A stretch of DNA of 64,000 bases from the NCBI RefSeq assembly GCF_037201915.1, contig NZ_CP147505.1:620001-684000 (forward strand), given 5' to 3'. Origin of the DNA: Haloplanus sp. CK5-1. GTDB taxonomy: Archaea; Halobacteriota; Halobacteria; Halobacteriales; Haloferacaceae. Position numbers and translations under genes: made by a program. Numbering within the stretch: position 1 is the stretch's first letter; every line of letters starts with the position of its first letter. Of this stretch, positions 15,696 through 31,165 are shown piece by piece. The notes under the pieces are model-generated. The model made no database searches. It was not told where the DNA came from and saw nothing but the letters and a program-made list of their open reading frames with translations.

Positions 15696-16274
15696 ATGAC
15701 CGACTCGCCGGACGATCGACCGACGGTCCTCGTCGTCGACGACGAACGCGACCTCACCGATCTGTACGAGGTGTGGCTGTCCGACGACTACCACGTCCGC
15801 ACGGCCTACGGCGGCGAGGAGGCCCTCGCCGCACACGACGACGCGGTCGACGTCGTCCTGCTGGATCGGCGGATGCCCGACCTGTCCGGCGACGAGGTCC
15901 TGGAGCGACTCCGCGACCAGGGGTCCGACTGTCAGGTCGTCATGGTGACGGCAGTCGACCCGGATTTCGACATCCTCGAGATGGGGTTCGACGGTTACGT
16001 CACCAAACCCGTCGACCGTGATCAACTGCAAAGCGTCGTCGAGCGGATGCTCACGCGCCGCGAGTACGACGCGCAACTCCAGTCATACTACCGACTCGTC
16101 GCACAGCGTGCTGCGCTCGTGGCCGAGAAGGACGCCGGCGAACTCGCCTCGAACCCCGAGTTCGCCGATCTGGAGGCCCGGATCGCCGATCTGAAAGCGG
16201 AGACGGACCTCGCCGTGAGCGACTTCGACGAGACGGACTTCGACGCCGCGTTTCGGGATCTGGACGACTCCTGA
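15696..16274 (+). CDS. Response regulator with HalX output domain
   Basis: A 192-residue protein. Residues 8-115 form a receiver: VLVVDDERD acidic pocket, Asp57 in LLDRRMPD, Thr in VMVTAVD and the conserved Lys in VTKPVD. Residues 118-185 form the HalX domain (LTRREYDAQLQSYYRLVAQRAALVAEKDAGEL), a helical domain largely confined to haloarchaea. The receiver is complete, so phosphorylation is likely; the output of HalX is not known. It converges with the truncated KaiC-like gene, ending 25 bases away, and is close to the LOV sensor gene at 16920. Confidence 0.93.
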   Translation: MTDSPDDRPTVLVVDDERDLTDLYEVWLSDDYHVRTAYGGEEALAAHDDAVDVVLLDRRMPDLSGDEVLERLRDQGSDCQVVMVTAVDPDFDILEMGFDGYVTKPVDRDQLQSVVERMLTRREYDAQLQSYYRLVAQRAALVAEKDAGELASNPEFADLEARIADLKAETDLAVSDFDETDFDAAFRDLDDS

Positions 16275-16299: not shown

Positions 16300-16773
16300 C
16301 TACTCTTCGCCCGAGTCGCCCCATCGCTCGACCACCTCCGGCGTTCCGGACAGCACGCCGTGCAACCGCGTCAGCGGATCGACGACCACGCGATCCGGTT
16401 CGACCTCGCGAACCCGCCGACTGATCTCCTCGGTGAGCGGTTCGCGTTCGACCTCGGCGGCCGAGAACACCTCGTACGACTGGTCTTCGGTGAACACCTC
16501 CGCGGTCGGGCGCAGATCTAGAAACGCCATCGACTCGACGTCGAACCCGAGCGACGTGGCGTTCGACTTGAGGTCGTCCAGATCCTCCTCGAGGTTGGTG
16601 AACAGGACCGTCTCGTCCGCGGCTACCCCCGCCTCCAGGAAGTGTAGCGTGAGAATCGTCTTCCCGACGCCGGGCGACCCGTCGACCATGTATCCACGGC
16701 GCTTGAGGAGGCCACCGCCGAGAACCCCGTCCAACCCCTCGATACCGGTCGAGACACGCTCCGGTGACGACAT
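16300..16773 (-). CDS. KaiC/RAD55-type ATPase with large internal deletion
   Basis: A 157-residue protein from the ATG at 16773. Residues 1-135 are the first half of a KaiC domain: STGIEGLDGVLGGGL, Walker A DGSPGVGKTI, the NLEED glutamates and DRVVVDP. The chain then passes directly to LHGVLSGTPEVVERWGDSGEE. That tail matches the very end of the intact two-domain protein at 25316-26782 (LRGILTGTPTWNDDGD). About 310 residues, including all of domain 2, appear to have been deleted in frame. It may still bind ATP but should not form a normal KaiC ring. It is divergent from the LOV sensor gene. Confidence 0.8.
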   Translation of the reverse strand: MSSPERVSTGIEGLDGVLGGGLLKRRGYMVDGSPGVGKTILTLHFLEAGVAADETVLFTNLEEDLDDLKSNATSLGFDVESMAFLDLRPTAEVFTEDQSYEVFSAAEVEREPLTEEISRRVREVEPDRVVVDPLTRLHGVLSGTPEVVERWGDSGEE

Positions 16774-16919: not shown

Positions 16920-18755
16920 ATGGAGGATCGGTCCGCCGAGTCGGTCGAGCGGAGTCCGGCCGACGAGCGGATCCTGTTGATCGCTAACCCCGGCCAAGAT
17001 CGGACGCTCCTCCGGGACTGGCTCGACTCGCTGTCCCGGTACCGCGTCGTCGTTCGCGATCCGGGGGGATCCCTTCCCGACCCCGACTCGTACGATCTCT
17101 GTCTCCTCGACGACGCCGCGCTCGCCCGATCCGCCGACGAACTGCTCGGTCACCGGGCCGAATCGGACCCCGTCTTCCTGCCCTGTCTGCTCGTGACGAC
17201 CGCACGCGACGCCGTCGGCGACCACTTCGCCGTCGAGGACGACGACGGCCGGTCGCTCGTCGACGACATCGTTCCGCTCCCGGTCGAGCAGTCGCTCCTC
17301 AGCCGCCGGATAGAGAACCTGTTGCACGCCCGGCGGGCCGCCACTCGCCTCCGGGAGCGAGAACAGCAGTACGAACGACTGGTCAACCTCACTCCCGAGG
17401 CGCTCCTCGTCCTCCGCGATCACGAGATCGTGTACAGCAACGCGGCCGCGGCCGACACCTTCGCCGGCGGCGACGACGCCGATCTGCAGGGGCGCTCCGT
17501 CACGACGCTCGTCCCGGACGACGCGCTCGACCGGTTCACCGAGACGCTGCGCGACATCGACCGCGACGGGCGGGTCGAGGGGTTCCGGAGCGTCCGCATG
17601 CGGACGACGGCCGGCGACCACGTCCGGACGAAGGTGGCCGGGACCCGTGTCGTCTTCGGCGAGGAACCGGCGACGCAGTTGCTCGTCCGCGACGTGACGG
17701 CCGAACACGAGCGCGAACAGCGGTTGTCCCTGTTCGGACGGGCGATCCAGTCGGCGGCCCAGGGCGTCACGATCGCCGACGCACGACGGGAGGACACCCC
17801 GCTCGTCTACGCCAATTCGGCGTTCGAGGAGATCACGGGCTACTCCCAGGCCGAAGCACTGGGACGGAACTGCCGGTTCCTACAGGGGAGTCGAACCGCG
17901 GACGAACCGGTCGCACGGATGCGACGAGCCATCGACACCGGAACCCCGGTCACCGTCGAAGTGCTGAACTACCGGAAGGACGGCACGGCCTTCTGGAACC
18001 AAGTGGACCTCCTGCCGGTCACCGACGACGACGGGACGGTCACGCACTTCCTCGGGTTGCAGCGCGATATCACCCGACGAAAGTCGCGCGAGGAGCGCCT
18101 GCAGGTGCTCGATCGGGTGTTGCGCCACAACCTGCGCAACCGCATGAACGTGATCATCGGACACGCCGAACGACTCCAGTCCGACGACGATCCGGCCGTC
18201 GTCGAGACGGCGGAAACGATCGAACGCGCGGGACAAAGTCTCCTCTCGATCAGCGAGCAGATCACCGAGTTCGAGGGGCTCATCAGTCGGTCGGACCAGG
18301 GACCCACGGTGTACGATCTGGCGAGTGCCCTCGAACGGGTCGTCGCCGGCGTCCGGGCGGAGCACCCGGCGGCCACGGTCCGCCTCGACAGCCCGGAGTC
18401 GGCGACTATCCGGGGGAGTCGACTCCTCCCGGCGGCACTCGAGGAAGTCCTCGAACTCGCGGTCAGGCCCGGCCCGGCCGACGCCGACGTCGAACTCGTC
18501 GTTCGGGTCGGGGGCGACCGAGTGTGTCTCGACCTGATCGACCACGGACGGACCATCCCCGAGAGCGACTTCGAGGTGATCGCCAGGGAATCGGAGTCGT
18601 CGACCGAACATCCCGACGGACTAGAATTCTGGCTGGTTCGGTGGGCGGTCCTCAACTCGAACGGCGATATGGACGCCGATCCGGTGGACGACCGCCGGTT
18701 CAGCATCCGTCTCCCGCGTGGGGGCGACGAGACGGACCGCGCGACGGAGAGGTAG
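16920..18755 (+). CDS. LOV-domain sensor histidine kinase with degenerate ATPase domain
   Basis: A 611-residue protein. Residues 15-135 form a degenerate receiver (RILLIANPGQDRTLLRDWL, DLCLLDD) lacking the acidic pair and lysine of true receivers. Residues 140-270 are a PAS domain. Residues 270-390 are a LOV domain with the full GRNCRFLQG motif (Cys318), NYRKDG, FWN and the flavin-sensing Gln in LGLQRDIT. The H-box is RVLRHNLRN (His403). The ATPase part lacks the usual N-box Asn residues, reads LIDHGRTIP where DNGPGIP is expected, and has GLEFWLV for GLGLWLV. It should sense blue light, but self-phosphorylation is doubtful. Confidence 0.88.
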   Translation: MEDRSAESVERSPADERILLIANPGQDRTLLRDWLDSLSRYRVVVRDPGGSLPDPDSYDLCLLDDAALARSADELLGHRAESDPVFLPCLLVTTARDAVGDHFAVEDDDGRSLVDDIVPLPVEQSLLSRRIENLLHARRAATRLREREQQYERLVNLTPEALLVLRDHEIVYSNAAAADTFAGGDDADLQGRSVTTLVPDDALDRFTETLRDIDRDGRVEGFRSVRMRTTAGDHVRTKVAGTRVVFGEEPATQLLVRDVTAEHEREQRLSLFGRAIQSAAQGVTIADARREDTPLVYANSAFEEITGYSQAEALGRNCRFLQGSRTADEPVARMRRAIDTGTPVTVEVLNYRKDGTAFWNQVDLLPVTDDDGTVTHFLGLQRDITRRKSREERLQVLDRVLRHNLRNRMNVIIGHAERLQSDDDPAVVETAETIERAGQSLLSISEQITEFEGLISRSDQGPTVYDLASALERVVAGVRAEHPAATVRLDSPESATIRGSRLLPAALEEVLELAVRPGPADADVELVVRVGGDRVCLDLIDHGRTIPESDFEVIARESESSTEHPDGLEFWLVRWAVLNSNGDMDADPVDDRRFSIRLPRGGDETDRATER

Positions 18756-25315: not shown

Positions 25316-26782
25316 ATGAGCAAAACGGAGAGTAAGGACCAAGAGCGGGCCGCAACCGGTGTTCCGGGCGTGGACGATATTCTTGACGGCGGCTATCTCC
25401 CCGAATCCGCCACGCTCGTGCGAGGCGAACCCGGCTCTGGCAAGTCGATCTTCTCGTTACACTTTCTCGCTGCTGGTCTGGATACGGACGAGACCGGGCT
25501 GTACATCAACCTTGGCGAACCGGAGGACTACATTCGGGATACTGCCCGGCACTTCGGTTTCGCTATCGATGCCATCGAGTTCCTCAACCTCTCTGCCTCC
25601 GGCGACCAGTTTCAGGGTGAGGAGACGTACACCCTGTTCGAGTCCGGTGAAGTCGAAACGCCTTCGCTCGTCGAGAGCATTCGTGCAGAGGTCAAGGAGA
25701 TCAACCCGGATCGTGTCGTGGTGGATCCAGTCACCGAGTTCCGGTATCTCACCCCCGACGAACACCAGTTCCGATCTCAGATCCTAGGCCTGATCAACTT
25801 TCTCAAAAGCGAGGGCGCGACGGTCCTGCTCACGTCACAAGCTGCCGCATCGATGCCCGACGACGATCTGCAGTTTCTCGTCGATGCCGTCATAAACATG
25901 CAAGCGAAGCCGGATCGGCGAACGATCCACGTCTCGAAGTTCCGTGGCTCCTCTGTCAGATCCGGTCACCACACGCTCCAGATCACCGACGATGGTATGC
26001 GGGTGTGGCCACGACTCGATCCCAACCGCCACGAGCGCGAGCACAAGTCGACCAAACTCTCCTCGGGTGTTCCGGCACTGGACTCACTGTTGTCGGGTGG
26101 CCTCACCACTGGAACGATCACGTTTCTGAGCGGGCCGACAGGGGTCGGCAAGACAAGGACTGGCCTCCAGTTCATGAAAGAGGCCGCAGGCCGAGGCCAG
26201 CGCTCGATCCTGTACAGCTTCGAAGAAGACCACAACACCCTCTTCGAGCGTGCGGAAGCCGTCAACATCCCTGTGACCGAAATGATCGACCGGGGGACGC
26301 TCAACGTAGAGGTGATCGGCCCAGAAGAACTCACCGTCGACGAGTTCACCCACCACATCCGATCGGAAGTCGAAGACAACGACGCCGAGATCGTGATGAT
26401 CGACGGGACCAGCGGGTTCGAGCAGTCGCTCCGCGGCGTCGACGAAGATCCGATGCGGGACCTCGTCAAGATCGGTCGCTATCTCCGCAACATGGGCGTG
26501 ACCGGACTGGTGACGAACGAAGTCCACAATATCACCGGTGAGTTCCGCGCGACCGACCAAGGCATGAGCTACCTTGCTGACAGCATCGTCGTCCTACGCC
26601 ATGTCGAATACAAGGGCTCACTCCGGAAGGTGATCGGCGTCCTCAAGATGCGCACCAGCCAGTACGAAAACCAGCTCCGGGAACTGGAGATCACCGAGCA
26701 CGGCCTGCGAGTCGGGGACTCGCTTCCCGAACTCCGAGGGATTCTCACCGGCACACCGACCTGGAATGACGATGGAGACTGA
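25316..26782 (+). CDS. Two-domain KaiC/RAD55-type ATPase
   Basis: A 488-residue tandem RecA-fold ATPase from the ATG at 25316. Domain 1 (about 10-235) has TGVPGVDDILDGGYL, Walker A GEPGSGKSI, NLGEPED and DRVVVDP. Domain 2 (about 245-470) has GVPALDSLLSGGL, Walker A GPTGVGKTR, SFEED and IVMIDGT. Both nucleotide sites look intact. KaiC is the ATPase/kinase of the cyanobacterial clock; haloarchaeal relatives are signalling ATPases of uncertain role. The gene overlaps the next kinase gene by 17 bases, so ATPase and kinase are probably made together. A shortened paralogue lies at 16300. Confidence 0.92.
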   Translation: MSKTESKDQERAATGVPGVDDILDGGYLPESATLVRGEPGSGKSIFSLHFLAAGLDTDETGLYINLGEPEDYIRDTARHFGFAIDAIEFLNLSASGDQFQGEETYTLFESGEVETPSLVESIRAEVKEINPDRVVVDPVTEFRYLTPDEHQFRSQILGLINFLKSEGATVLLTSQAAASMPDDDLQFLVDAVINMQAKPDRRTIHVSKFRGSSVRSGHHTLQITDDGMRVWPRLDPNRHEREHKSTKLSSGVPALDSLLSGGLTTGTITFLSGPTGVGKTRTGLQFMKEAAGRGQRSILYSFEEDHNTLFERAEAVNIPVTEMIDRGTLNVEVIGPEELTVDEFTHHIRSEVEDNDAEIVMIDGTSGFEQSLRGVDEDPMRDLVKIGRYLRNMGVTGLVTNEVHNITGEFRATDQGMSYLADSIVVLRHVEYKGSLRKVIGVLKMRTSQYENQLRELEITEHGLRVGDSLPELRGILTGTPTWNDDGD

Positions 26783-27917
26783 GTCACCGGCGCTTGGAGC
26801 CGCCGACCGGCTCGGGACAGCGACATCACCCGCGAGAGTTGTGCAGATACTGTCACATGTGGACAACCAACGAGTACTCGTCAACTGGCTCCAGCAACAG
26901 GACCGGTACGAGGTCGTCTCGGACGACGCCGCGGTACTCCCGGAGGCCGACATCGACATCGTCGTTCTCGATGCCCAGTCGCTCCGTGCGTACGATGCCG
27001 AGATCCGAGAGCGGAAGGCAGACGCAGACGCCATACTCCCGGTGCTGCTCGTGGGGTCCGACACCGGCGCTGATACACTTGATAGTCGGGAGCAGACTGA
27101 GACGGAGCCGGCGGTCTCGGAGCTTGTCGATGAAGTTCTGACGACACCGATCGACACCATGGAGTTACGAAATCGACTTGATACGCTCGGGCGCATCAGG
27201 GCCCAGTCGATCGCACTAGAAAGCAAGACTAACCAGCTGCTGTTGTTGAATCGCATCAGTCGGCACGATATCCGCAACGAGATGAACGTCGTCATCGGCT
27301 GGACCGAACAACTCGCAAAACACACTGACGACGCAGGCGATCAGATACGCCAACGAATCCTGGACAGTAGCCAGCACGTCGCTGATCTCACGAAAGCCGT
27401 GCGGGAATTCGTCGACGCACTCCAGACGGCTGATGCCCCGAACCTGGAGGCGGTCGCCCTCGAAGACGCGGTAACCGACGAACTCACGAAACGCCGCGCT
27501 ACGTTCGAGGACGCCGAGTTCGTCGTCGATGGTGACATTCCACGGGTAGACGTCCGCGCAAACGACCTCTTGGCGTCGGTGTTCAGAAACGTCCTGAATA
27601 ATGCCGTCCAGCACAACGACAGCGACACACCACGAGTGGAGATATCCGTCGTAGAGGGCGCCGAAACGGTTGCTATCACGATAGCCGACAACGGCCCGGG
27701 AATTCCACCGGCCCAGCGGGACGCCGTCCTGGGCCGAACCGACCGGGGACTTGATCATCCTGCAGCGGGACTCGGTCTCTACCTCGTCGATGCACTCGTC
27801 ACGCAGTACGGCGGCACACTACAGATCAGCGACGCTGATCTGGGTGGGGCCAGTATCGAGATCGAACTCCGCAAAGAGCAACCGACTGGGATGAATACCG
27901 ATGACAATGACTCCTGA
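26766..27917 (+). CDS. Histidine kinase with N-terminal degenerate receiver domain
   Basis: A 383-residue protein. Residues 20-145 form a receiver-like domain (RVVQILSHVDNQRVLVNWL, IDIVVLDAQSL) lacking the acidic pair and lysine of true receivers; the same domain starts the proteins at 16920 and 27901/29042. There is no PAS domain. The H-box is SRHDIRNEMNVVIGW (about His167). The ATPase domain is complete: N-box FRNVLNNAVQHN, IADNGPGIP and GLGLYLVDAL. It overlaps the KaiC-like gene upstream and the next kinase gene downstream, giving a three-gene operon. An in-frame ATG two codons later is an alternative start. Confidence 0.9.
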   Translation: MTMETESPALGAADRLGTATSPARVVQILSHVDNQRVLVNWLQQQDRYEVVSDDAAVLPEADIDIVVLDAQSLRAYDAEIRERKADADAILPVLLVGSDTGADTLDSREQTETEPAVSELVDEVLTTPIDTMELRNRLDTLGRIRAQSIALESKTNQLLLLNRISRHDIRNEMNVVIGWTEQLAKHTDDAGDQIRQRILDSSQHVADLTKAVREFVDALQTADAPNLEAVALEDAVTDELTKRRATFEDAEFVVDGDIPRVDVRANDLLASVFRNVLNNAVQHNDSDTPRVEISVVEGAETVAITIADNGPGIPPAQRDAVLGRTDRGLDHPAAGLGLYLVDALVTQYGGTLQISDADLGGASIEIELRKEQPTGMNTDDNDS

Positions 27918-27966
27918 AGCGGTGCCCGATTCCCGGAACCGGGTCCTCCCGCTCATTGCGGATTCG
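27901..27966 (+). pseudogene. N-terminal piece of the IS-split LOV kinase gene
   Basis: The first 22 codons (MTMTPEAVPDSRNRVLPLIA and D-S) overlap the previous gene by 17 bases. The frame is cut by the IS at 27967 and resumes with G-N-R-Q-L-L-E-Q-W at 29042. Joining 27966 to 29042 restores a continuous frame, so this was the original start of the kinase now seen at 29042-31165. Confidence 0.8.
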
Positions 27967-29035
27967 GAGGGTGTCATAGAACTCTTCTCACACCGTGATG
28001 ATTGTGCTTCCCGGATTGTCTCCGCGTTCGTAGTTGGTGATTGCGACGACGAGGCGCAGACACAACGCGAGGAACACCTGCGCTCGTGCATGGACGCGGC
28101 CTCGGGCGTGCGTTCGCCCGAGGCCGCAGCCCTTGACTGATTCGTTGGTTCGTTCGACGCCACTCCGGCGGTTGTACGTCTCGTCTAGCGTTGATTGCTT
28201 CAGCTGAACGTCGTTGCTGTGTTTTTCAATGCGGTCTTCTACCCTGTACTCGATATCTTTCGGGTCGTCGGTGTTTCGTGGATTGTACGGAGCGACTGGC
28301 ACGACCCCTGCGGCCAGCAGGTGGTCGTGCCAGTCGAGCGTGTCGTAGGCACTGTCTCCAAGCATCCACATCGGTTTCCCGACGGCGAGCGCGTCACGCG
28401 TGACGCGCATCGCCGTCTCTTCTGGTGCTTGTTTGCTCTCGGTGAACTCGGCTGCAATCGGGATCTTTTGCCCGGTTGAGACGATCGTGCAGCCGTAGCC
28501 GTAGTAGTACTCGTCATCGGTTGGATCATAGCACTTCGATGCGTCTGGATCGGCGGGCATCGCTCTCACGTCGGTTGAATCGATAGAATACGTCAAGTCG
28601 AGCAGGCCCCGCAAGGCGGCCTGCTCGACGAGATGGTCGAAGACCCGGTCAACAACGTGCTCAAGATCAGTGAGGAATCGATCGACCGCGTCTCTCGACG
28701 GCGGTCGATCGAAGCTACAGCTGAGCCAGACAACGGTGTTGTTCAGTTCTCGTGCAACCGGACGGATACCGTAGATGTTCTTGTAATAGCAATGGAGAAA
28801 GCCACGCATCATCTCGGGCGGCTCAAGATCTCGTGTTCGCCCCGTCTCCGCCGGGGCGAACACGTCGAACCCTTCAAGAAACTCGAAGGAGAGGTGCTCG
28901 AACAACGCCAACGTCTCCGTTTCCACGGCATTGAAGAACGATTCTACCGAAGGATCATCTTGCAGGGTCGCTGAACTCATTCCACCTCAGCGTTCACCCT
29001 GCTCTTTGGTATGCGAACTGTTCTATGACACCCTC
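27967..29035 (-). mobile_element. Insertion sequence with 16-bp TIR and 6-bp target duplication
   Basis: The element is 1069 bases. Ends are GAGGGTGTCATAGAAC (27967-27982) and its exact complement GTTCTATGACACCCTC (29020-29035). Flanking GATTCG occurs on both sides (27961-27966 and 29036-29041), a target-site duplication. It carries one DDE transposase gene on the minus strand. Intact ends and duplication indicate a fairly recent insertion. Confidence 0.9.
27988..28980 (-). CDS. DDE transposase (IS4/IS5-type superfamily)
   Basis: A 330-residue transposase. The DDE triad is seen as YSIDSTDVRAM, MLGDSAYDT and RRSGVERTNESVK. PVARELNNTVVWLSCSF at the N-terminus is a family hallmark of haloarchaeal copies. 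The protein appears full length, so the element may be active. The exact IS group could not be decided by eye. Confidence 0.9.
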   Translation of the reverse strand: MSSATLQDDPSVESFFNAVETETLALFEHLSFEFLEGFDVFAPAETGRTRDLEPPEMMRGFLHCYYKNIYGIRPVARELNNTVVWLSCSFDRPPSRDAVDRFLTDLEHVVDRVFDHLVEQAALRGLLDLTYSIDSTDVRAMPADPDASKCYDPTDDEYYYGYGCTIVSTGQKIPIAAEFTESKQAPEETAMRVTRDALAVGKPMWMLGDSAYDTLDWHDHLLAAGVVPVAPYNPRNTDDPKDIEYRVEDRIEKHSNDVQLKQSTLDETYNRRSGVERTNESVKGCGLGRTHARGRVHARAQVFLALCLRLVVAITNYERGDNPGSTIITV

Positions 29036-31165
29036 GATTCGGGCAATCGCCAGTTGCTCGAACAGTGGATCGACGACCACCCCTCCTACGAATCCGTGGA
29101 CGCCTCGGGAGACATCGAGGACGCGGACTTCGATGTCTGTATTATCGACAAAGGGGCGTTCCAGGAGCACCTCGATGCGCTCCGTGCGAAGAAGACTGGG
29201 GCGGCCCCCGTCTTGCTTCCGTATCTCCTGTTGCTCCCGGAGTCCGGGACTGATATCATCGATTCGGACGCCGGTCAGCTTGCCGACAACGTGGTCACGG
29301 AAACGATCGACGAGATCGTCTCGCTGCCGATCCAGCAGGCCGAACTCAACTGGCGACTGGAAGCGTTGCTCCGACTGCGGAGTCAGTCGCTCACCTTGCG
29401 GGAGCGAGAGCGTGAGCTCGAACGCCAGGTCGATCTCTTCGAGAAGGCCCAGGATATTGCGAACGTCGGCGCCTGGGAGTACGACCTGGATGCTGAGGAG
29501 GGGTGGTGGACCGACGAGGCTCGCCGCATCCACGCGCTCCCGGACGACACGCCGCCGTCACCGGAACTGAGCCTCCAACATTTCCACCCCGAGGACCGAT
29601 CGATCATCCAAGAGGCATTCGAGACGGCTGTCGAGGAGGGTGAACCGTACGATTTCGAAGTCCGACTCATCGATGCGGAGGACAACTGGAGATGGGTGCG
29701 AACGAGGGGAGAACCGCAGTACGAAGACGGGGAGATGGTCCGCATTCGGGGGACGATACAGGACATCACCGAGCGCAAGGAACGCGAACTCGACCTCCAG
29801 CGCATCAAGCAAGCGGTCGAATCCGCTGGCCACGCGATTCTTATCACCGACCCCGACGGGAGAATCGAGTACGTCAACTCGGGCTTCGAGGAGATAACCG
29901 GCTTCACCCAGGCAGAGGTCGTCGGTAAGACACCGCACGTGTTGAACTCCGGTGCGATGCCGGAGGGGTATTTCGAGGACTTCTGGGACACCATCCTCTC
30001 TGGGGAGGTGTGGGCAGAGGAAATCGTCAACCGTCGGAAAAACGGGGAGACGTACACGGCGATGCAGACGGTCGCACCCGTCACCGACGGTGACGAGATT
30101 CACGCGTTCGTGGCAGTCCAGGACGATATTACGGAACGCAAAGAGCAGGAGGAGACACTCGAACGGCGGACGCACGCGATCGACGAAGCGCCAGTCGGCA
30201 TCACCATCACCGATCCGGAACGGGAGGACAACCCGATGATCTACGTCAACGATGCGTTCGTGGATATGACGGGCTACCCACGTGAGGAGGGGATCGGGGA
30301 AAACTGTCGATTCCTCCAGGGCGAGAACACCGACCCGGACAAGGTTGCCGAGATTCGGGAGGCGATCGATGCGGAGGAACCGATATCCATCGACCTCAAA
30401 AATTATCGCAAGGACGGAACGGAGTTTTGGAACCACCTCGAAATTGCGCCCGTACGAGATGATGCGGGTGCTGTCGTCAACTACATTGGATTCCAGCAGG
30501 ATGTCACGGAGCGCAAGGAGCGCCAACGACAGTTAGGCGTTCTCGATCGAGTGTTACGCCACAACCTGCGCAACAATATGAACGTGATTCGAGGACGAGC
30601 CGAGACGATCAACGTCGAGACGTCGGGCGAGGTTGCAGCATCCGCAGAGAAGATCGTGGACACGAGCGATCAACTGATCGAACTGGCAGAAAAAGAACGT
30701 CAGATAACGGAACTGCTTCGGGAGGACCCGACACAGAACCAAATCAACGTATGTGATCGTCTCCAGGACGTCGTTTCGAGTGTTGGTTCTGAGTACTCGG
30801 ACGCGACAATTGCCGTTGAATGCCCTGGCGACGTAACTGTTGAGGCGATGCCACAGTTTGGGCAGGCGATCAAAGAACTCGTTACGAACGCGGTCATCCA
30901 CAACGATTCGCCGTCGCCTGAAGTCACTGTTACCGTCACCCAGACTGATGAGACGGTTCGTCTCGCAGTAGCCGACAGTGGGCCACGCATCCCCGAGATG
31001 GAGCGAGACATACTGGTAGATCAAGCGGAACAAACACCGCTGTACCACGGGAGCGGGCTCGGGTTGTGGCTCGTGAAATTACTCACCGCTCGATCGGGCG
31101 GTACCATCACAGTCGAGGAGAATTCGCCAGCCGGCAACATCGTCGGAATAGAACTGTCACGGTGA
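28931..31165 (+). CDS. LOV-domain sensor histidine kinase, split from its start by an IS
   Basis: The frame is open from an ATG inside the IS (28931) through the right IS end; native sequence begins at 29042. Domains after the junction: rest of a degenerate receiver (ending near 29400), PAS 1 (ANVGAWEYDLD), PAS 2 (RIEYVNSGFEEITGFTQ) and a LOV domain with the full GENCRFLQG motif (Cys codon at 30305), NYRKDGTEFWNH and IGFQQDVTERK. The H-box is RVLRHNLRNNMNVIRG. The ATPase N-box is VTNAVIHND, the G1 box deviates (VADSGPRIP) and the G2 box is GSGLGLWLV. It is probably a blue-light kinase. A fusion product starting inside the IS is possible but unproven. Confidence 0.85.
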   Translation: MKNDSTEGSSCRVAELIPPQRSPCSLVCELFYDTLDSGNRQLLEQWIDDHPSYESVDASGDIEDADFDVCIIDKGAFQEHLDALRAKKTGAAPVLLPYLLLLPESGTDIIDSDAGQLADNVVTETIDEIVSLPIQQAELNWRLEALLRLRSQSLTLRERERELERQVDLFEKAQDIANVGAWEYDLDAEEGWWTDEARRIHALPDDTPPSPELSLQHFHPEDRSIIQEAFETAVEEGEPYDFEVRLIDAEDNWRWVRTRGEPQYEDGEMVRIRGTIQDITERKERELDLQRIKQAVESAGHAILITDPDGRIEYVNSGFEEITGFTQAEVVGKTPHVLNSGAMPEGYFEDFWDTILSGEVWAEEIVNRRKNGETYTAMQTVAPVTDGDEIHAFVAVQDDITERKEQEETLERRTHAIDEAPVGITITDPEREDNPMIYVNDAFVDMTGYPREEGIGENCRFLQGENTDPDKVAEIREAIDAEEPISIDLKNYRKDGTEFWNHLEIAPVRDDAGAVVNYIGFQQDVTERKERQRQLGVLDRVLRHNLRNNMNVIRGRAETINVETSGEVAASAEKIVDTSDQLIELAEKERQITELLREDPTQNQINVCDRLQDVVSSVGSEYSDATIAVECPGDVTVEAMPQFGQAIKELVTNAVIHNDSPSPEVTVTVTQTDETVRLAVADSGPRIPEMERDILVDQAEQTPLYHGSGLGLWLVKLLTARSGGTITVEENSPAGNIVGIELSR

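Follow-up and report, generated by a model that had tools for sequence, protein, structure and literature searches.

What does a receiver-like domain do at the front of histidine kinases that are encoded directly behind a KaiC-like ATPase? The question is raised by an operon of Haloplanus sp. CK5-1 (NCBI RefSeq assembly GCF_037201915.1) at positions 25,316 to 31,165 of a 64,000-nucleotide stretch (contig NZ_CP147505.1, positions 620,001 to 684,000 of the forward strand), which is called the window here and whose numbering is used for all its features. The operon encodes a two-domain KaiC-like ATPase and two kinases, K1 and K2, that share an N-terminal domain, and a second locus near 16 kb holds a further sensor with the same domain. 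An earlier note on this DNA, made from its letters, took these pairings for a functional module coupling an ATPase to light sensing. The shared domain is identified below, from its profile and predicted fold, as a pseudo-receiver that recurs beside two-domain KaiC, and it appears probable that it links KaiC to varied output enzymes.

Pairing with two-domain KaiC in haloarchaea

A search of 40 related genomes with profile A1 returned 49 matches in 27 genomes, a count that takes in the window's own three and two with weak scores (E 0.004 and 0.005). A KaiC match lay within 2 kb of 38 of these 49 pseudo-receivers and of 0 of 140 control histidine kinases among the matches listed, for which Fisher p was 2.6e-30 with kinship ignored; the best 150 matches were used for the control kinases and the best 150 for Pfam KaiC, and none of the tests in this work carries a correction for the relatedness of the genomes. 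Viewed from KaiC, and again among the matches listed, a pseudo-receiver was found within 1 kb of 32/34 apparent two-domain KaiC genes (two Pfam KaiC matches at most 70 bp apart) versus 2/82 single KaiC matches; since G036, one of the two exceptions, holds a single broken domain split in two, 32/33 is equally fair.

Across the haloarchaeal class, the domain was present in 207 of 292 genomes and 59 of 77 genera (E up to 1e-5). For replication, one locus per genus was taken from genomes outside the first 40, drawn from the 150 best matches, and among these 36 loci a full KaiC lay within 1 kb in 34, a partial one in 1 and none in 1. A scan of named genomes with KaiC as the query gave 13/13 loci with the domain adjacent or one small gene away. 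The locus sets overlap (L111 is L161, L120 is L166, L254 is L163, and some named loci are in the genus set); over these overlapping sets KaiC came first in 70/70 codirectional pairs, and in the genus set 14 of 34 KaiC-receiver gaps were overlaps. The KaiC distance matrix was correlated with that of the receiver (r 0.751 for 72 pairs, with 0 of 2000 permutations as high), also inside one genus (r 0.882, 15 pairs). The view that this is a functional module, not a chance neighbourhood, is thus strongly supported by the 38/49 versus 0/140 among the matches listed and by the 34/36 full pairs of the replication; the enrichment check that the earlier note had proposed was strongly positive at the 2-kb distance used.

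Three loci with a solo receiver kinase (L087, L091, L092) match L085, L088, L089, L096 and L097, all with a divergent KaiC, in the lengths and order of the flanking genes, and the genomes of these three (G006, G001, G009) hold further KaiC-receiver pairs. A plasmid of Haloferax larsenii carries two genes behind KaiC, both matching the domain profile.

Predicted receiver fold lacking phosphotransfer residues

No match to PF00072 was obtained for the three N-terminal domains of the window at E up to 10. Profile A3, built from 44 homologues (the decayed K1 relative of L062 and the near-duplicate L078 were omitted), matched receivers among solved structures, with PleD on top (E 2.5e-13). The predicted structure of the domain (mean predicted local distance difference test score, pLDDT, 82.9; predicted template modelling score, pTM, 0.78) gave two structural-match lists, both headed by receivers; the best match was PleD (Z 14.8, root-mean-square deviation 2.4 over 128 residues), and non-receiver matches were Rheb at rank 34 of one list and arginine decarboxylases at ranks 30, 35 and 45 of the other. 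At the position of the receiver lysine, Lys was found in 0/44 homologues, the next proline being retained in 43/44, and an adjacent acidic pair after beta-1 was present in at most 2/43. The domain has the predicted receiver fold and lacks the combination of acidic pair, phosphoacceptor Asp and Lys of an active receiver. Because it joins a receiver profile and predicted fold to missing phosphotransfer residues, the shared N-terminal domain is, as modelled, a pseudo-receiver. Alignment bore out the earlier description of a common receiver-like N-terminus of both kinases without acidic pair and lysine. A KaiB-like identity of the SasA type was considered for the domain and dropped in view of the receiver profile and predicted receiver fold.

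The predicted structure of K1 (mean pLDDT 79.9, pTM 0.62) contains one continuous helix, residues 131–183, in which the last helix of the receiver would be fused to the dimerisation helix bearing His167. The kinase boxes (phosphoacceptor H167; N, G1, G2) were invariant across 19 aligned minimal kinases of the K1 type. Linkers in minimal kinases measured 39, 46 or 53 residues in 14/17 and 38, 43 or 57 in 3/17 (the script found 18; L068, with a distance of 4, was dropped as a spurious motif match), a pattern that in these related sequences is only suggestive of a heptad-spaced linker.

Occurrence outside haloarchaea

Bacterial matches comprised 27 rows, from which 23 loci were fetched (three rows were already known loci, with KaiC, and G688:C38 was left out), and a two-domain KaiC was adjacent in 16 of the 23. 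In gammaproteobacteria the KaiC-linked domain was fused to GGDEF-EAL, confirmed by Pfam in L121, L122, L123, L226 and L228 and by motif in three further loci, and a small degenerate receiver gene lay between the KaiC and GGDEF-EAL genes in 5/8 loci (L121, L122, L123, L226, L227). In cyanobacteria the fusion partner was a kinase, and in five cases the protein was about the size of K1 (376–415 residues). As a separate observation, similar small receiver genes adjoin the cyanobacterial modules L118, L234 and L238–L241, and a 72-residue look-alike piece is present in L069.

KaiC relatives at E up to 1e-30 were found in 264 plasmid records of many groups. In three of these (L257, L258, L259), from alphaproteobacteria, KaiC overlaps a downstream kinase, in one case of the HWE type, that bears another degenerate receiver; this receiver was missed by A3 and matched it in a profile-profile comparison (E 5.2e-5, probability 67%). 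Taken together, the kinases, the GGDEF-EAL proteins and the alphaproteobacterial receivers indicate that the degenerate receiver is the constant element beside KaiC and that the output varies. On viral contigs there were 17 pattern matches, none of which was a relative.

Loci in the window

Feature coordinates are collected in Table 1. The window KaiC belongs to PF06745, with two tandem KaiC ATPase domains, and its residues 8–482 align to a solved KaiC structure (E 2.2e-60). K1 overlaps the KaiC gene by 17 bp, in agreement, by reading frames and sequence, with the 17-base overlap described before. No PAS or other sensor domain was found by Pfam between the pseudo-receiver and the kinase of K1. 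The pseudo-receivers of K2 and of the sensor at 16.9 kb are 33% and 30% identical to that of K1. In K2 the LOV motif NCRFLQ sits in the last of three PAS stretches, and the NCBIfam YtvA-family blue-light model gave 1.6e-68 and 230.9 bits, short of its cut-off of 250. K2 thus has the LOV cysteine motif of a LOV histidine kinase; its gene is not intact. The claimed overlap of the two kinases holds for the K2 ATG at 27901, which lies 17 bp inside K1, and K2 is cut after codon 22. Elsewhere in the genus, a K1 relative (L062, 8468–9244) appears decayed behind its receiver domain.

Table 1. Features of the two KaiC-associated loci, in window coordinates
Feature	Position	Strand	Basis
REC-HalX response regulator adjoining the second locus	15696..16274	+	Pfam Response_reg 3.1e-21, HalX 9.7e-19
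KaiC stump, positions 1–131 of 231 of Pfam KaiC	16300..16773	-	Pfam; start by codon-usage script
Second-locus sensor: pseudo-receiver, PAS, LOV, weak HisKA, degraded HATPase	16920..18755	+	Frames, Pfam, alignment
Two-domain KaiC-like ATPase, 488 residues	25316..26782	+	Walker motifs in both domains; Pfam KaiC 4.1e-76, two stretches
K1, 383 residues: pseudo-receiver, HisKA, HATPase	26766..27917	+	Pfam HATPase 6.7e-19, HisKA 0.0008
Pseudo-receiver of K1, limits approximate	26823..27230	+	A3 profile and predicted receiver fold
K2 5' piece, 22 codons, ends at the insertion	27901..27966	+	Sequence and joined-flank reading
Target repeat GATTCG, left copy, 6 bp	27961..27966	.	Sequence
Insertion sequence, 1069 bp	27967..29035	-	16-bp perfect inverted ends; genome copies
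DDE transposase of the insertion sequence	27988..28980	-	Pfam DDE_Tnp_1 2e-25
Target repeat GATTCG, right copy, 6 bp	29036..29041	.	Sequence
K2 remainder	29042..31165	+	Pseudo-receiver without its first strand, three PAS stretches, kinase domains

K2 is cut by an insertion sequence that had gone unmentioned in the earlier account of the operon. It falls in the K2 pseudo-receiver, the frame departs from the kinase past codon 22, and an uninterrupted N-terminal reading is restored when the flanks are joined in silico. The best NCBIfam models for the transposase are IS1182 and IS5, both below their cut-offs. Full-length copies number 25 in the genome, including that at 27967–29035, at 100% (rounded) identity, which makes the insertion into K2 probably recent and the copies themselves probably the product of a recent, active burst. 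With K2 broken, the intact remnant of the operon is KaiC with the sensor-less K1.

At the second locus, the earlier note had placed a KaiC-like gene at 16300 divergent from a LOV sensor with the same N-terminal domain; the arrangement is there, and the ATPase is only a stump. The LOV motif NCRFLQ is also present in this sensor, whose HATPase scored 24.0 bits against a Pfam cut-off of 26.4, with HisKA below its cut-off too. In the pseudo-receiver tree the 16-kb domain clusters with L064, L181, L071 and L067, apart from K1 and K2, and within that clade L181 and L071 are likewise without KaiC. The tree rules out that this locus is, as had been claimed, the 25-kb operon in an eroded second copy, and points to a separate, decayed lineage. 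The two pairings are therefore independent by lineage, as proposed, although the 16-kb pairing is decayed and the LOV kinase of the 25-kb pairing is disrupted.

REC-HalX genes are neighbours of the second locus and of seven other loci. Independently of the modules, at least six genomes (G008, G012, G013, G015, G019, G020) have single-Pfam-match KaiC-like genes at a distance of 0.5–1.0 kb from a gene with a HalX domain. On haloarchaeal plasmid records H1, H5, H6, H10, H17 and H20, KaiC relatives of the operon's type are labelled 'gvpD' or 'gas vesicle protein GvpD', probably a misnomer. The 14.5 kb examined around the two-domain KaiC of L249 contain no receiver domain, and this KaiC adjoins a membrane gene that by eye resembles type IV pilus assembly proteins.

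Features of the KaiC proteins

Clock-type KaiC has phosphorylatable Ser431 and Thr432 and a long C-terminal tail for KaiA. These features were scored in 74 related KaiC proteins (gene calls of 440–540 residues) by mapping on the alignment to solved KaiC. Ser and Thr occupy the S431 and T426 positions in 74/74; the T432 position is Tyr in the window KaiC and in 62/74, and the phosphorylatable pair of the clock type is accordingly missing. The long tail is missing as well, with 22 residues or fewer beyond the TGTPT motif in 72/74, and the window KaiC scored 200.2 bits with the clock-type model TIGR02655, below its threshold of 546.25. The Walker lysines are retained in 72/72 and 74/74 sequences with a letter at these positions and the CII glutamates in 72/74 and 74/74, and in the CI pair Gly takes the place of the first glutamate in the window KaiC and in 21/74. 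Pfam KaiB had no match in the genome of the window, and across the 40 genomes it exceeded its cut-off in 0, with weak matches in 2.

Light sensing

LOV domains were scored by the NCRFL pattern alone. The motif was present in 26/83 receiver proteins longer than 300 residues (19/42 and 7/41) and in 1/32 other kinases of the same regions (0/26 and 1/6), p 0.001 with kinship ignored; a second control gave 1/28. In the Halorussus pelagicus relative of K2, Ser replaces the LOV Cys. LOV is thus enriched above the controls and yet optional, being confined to a minority. A 'light module' was dropped as the defining feature for that reason, and the proposed coupling of the ATPase to light is weakly supported: the enrichment speaks for it, but the smallest partner kinases are sensor-less.

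Proposed mechanism and alternative explanations

We regard it as fairly probable that the pseudo-receiver is a KaiC-coupling adaptor in a module of a two-domain KaiC and an output enzyme, passing the state of KaiC to that enzyme via the continuous helix. KaiC would assemble into a hexameric ring that changes its ATP or phosphorylation state, the pseudo-receiver would touch the ring, and the contact would alter the dimer of receivers, with the continuous helix relaying the change so as to switch the kinase or, in gammaproteobacteria, the GGDEF-EAL protein. In haloarchaea, phosphate would pass onward to response regulators, among which the adjoining REC-HalX proteins are possible acceptors, and a PAS or LOV domain between receiver and kinase would provide a second input in some members. 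As kinases of the K1 type lack any further sensor, they are most simply read as taking their input from the state of KaiC. By analogy, the pseudo-receiver is best read as a KaiB-free counterpart of SasA and CikA. A broader proposal, to which we incline rather less than to its opposite, is that the domain may be an exchangeable KaiC-reading joint found across domains of life, giving KaiB-free output to haloarchaeal and cyanobacterial kinases and to cyclic di-GMP enzymes of gammaproteobacteria, and may supply the missing output of an archaeal KaiC timer.

Several observations weigh against the adaptor. The beta-3 aspartate, which the earlier note does not mention, is kept in 32/44 homologues, leaving room for a phosphorylated function. 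The docking on the KaiC ring that the earlier note proposed would fit a constant domain with variable outputs, but the neighbourhood may reflect co-regulation without contact. The other exception among the two-domain KaiC genes, L249, is a genuine one without a pseudo-receiver, and no KaiC-receiver fusion was found among the frames scanned. Solo members exist: in the 40 regions fetched from 43 match clusters (G037:C124 and two weak matches were left out), KaiC was strong in 33, weak and decayed in 2 (L069, L087) and absent from 5, as counted from open frames because the gene caller had missed the KaiC of L079 and the receiver genes of L063 and L080. Outside haloarchaea, KaiC is lacking at 7/23 bacterial loci and the domain is rare, occurring in 7/369 gammaproteobacterial and 13/292 cyanobacterial genomes (E up to 1e-10). 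At receiver position 26, the start of the first helix, Asn or Asp is present in 109/110 KaiC-linked versus 7/14 unlinked sequences with a letter there, a contrast that was found post hoc in related sequences and in which the unlinked L248 resembles an ordinary receiver; the position may serve as a post hoc lead toward the KaiC contact.

The direction of signalling could be reversed, with PAS/LOV kinases feeding environmental signals to the ring in a CikA-like input arm and the receiver as the delivery contact. The PAS domains of many partners, and LOV in 26/83, above other kinases of the same regions, would suit this arrangement, which we nevertheless consider unlikely, as minimal partners such as K1 are sensor-less, leaving only KaiC to sense, and the GGDEF-EAL partners of gammaproteobacteria are output enzymes. 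It is less probable again that the domain serves its own kinase as a built-in brake or as a ligand sensor, as in ShkA or CikA, with KaiC merely in the same regulon. The consulted part of PMC12632262 does describe pseudo-receivers that act as ligand binders or as inhibitors of the kinase they belong to, and solo members persist without an adjacent KaiC; on this account, however, neither so close an association with a single KaiC type across archaea and two bacterial phyla nor the replacement of the kinase by GGDEF-EAL would be expected. The neighbourhood could also stem from common descent and from the spread of one cassette on plasmids, with no functional tie between its genes, and several modules do lie on haloarchaeal plasmids. 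This we hold to be very improbable, given that the pairing persists in codirectional and divergent order, at low identity and across phyla, and that control kinases have no such pairing among the matches listed.

Comparison with known systems

Archaeal KaiC relatives have reportedly been proposed as signalling hubs tied to many signalling domains (by Makarova, Galperin and Koonin in mBio in 2017), and the pseudo-receiver pairing falls inside this published general idea. No description of a common pseudo-receiver as the KaiC-linked part, of its exchangeable outputs or of its spread was found in the literature searched, whose scope did not take in the 2017 mBio hub paper. The recurring pairing of KaiC with an inactive receiver suggests a conserved joint between the KaiC ring and cell signalling, of which the window holds a partly broken copy.

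The best structural match is PleD, whose second receiver is an inactive adaptor. The profile match peaks in that second receiver (154–281), and the structural match gave Z 14.8 for the first receiver and Z 14.3 for the second. PleD and DgcR, which are among the best structural matches, have their output domains placed after this same helix and signal through it. We know of no KaiC partner of PleD.

The KaiB-like domain of SasA is N-terminal. SasA resembles the K1 arrangement as a KaiC-dependent histidine kinase with the KaiC contact in a separate, KaiB-like domain (PMC5520375, as far as the consulted part describes it), but that contact has a KaiB-like thioredoxin fold, whereas the K1 domain has a predicted receiver fold and is not of the SasA type. 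The pseudo-receivers of CikA and KaiA likewise have receiver folds, carry out no phosphotransfer and act on the KaiABC clock, and that of CikA binds KaiB through a surface that takes in the first helix (both from the consulted part of PMC12632262). They differ from the window domain, which is N-terminal on a kinase and occurs in a set of genomes with KaiB over the cut-off in 0/40. KaiA3 of Synechocystis, a partner of KaiC, starts with a receiver-like domain, although its C-terminus is KaiA-like and a kinase is absent (PMC11372060, in the portion consulted). A divergent haloarchaeal receiver is also found at the N-terminus of Bat, a light- and redox-related regulator (PMC5847659, in the portion consulted).

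The 2025 review, in its consulted part, is unaware of a published functional study of any archaeal pseudo-receiver (PMC12632262); if the adaptor proposed here is real, an archaeal pseudo-receiver would gain a function. The nearest experimental system is Haloferax volcanii, in which, according to the consulted part of Maniscalco et al. (2014, PMC3941300), cirC (52.7 kDa) alone among the cir genes has the Walker A and B motifs in duplicate and lies adjacent to a sensor named 'fixL'; its knockout, like that of each cir gene examined, abolished the light/dark rhythmic expression of other cir genes. A two-domain KaiC relative beside a sensor gene is also the layout of the window module, which provides a concrete candidate with a contact domain that can be tested in H. 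volcanii, where cir mutants exist.

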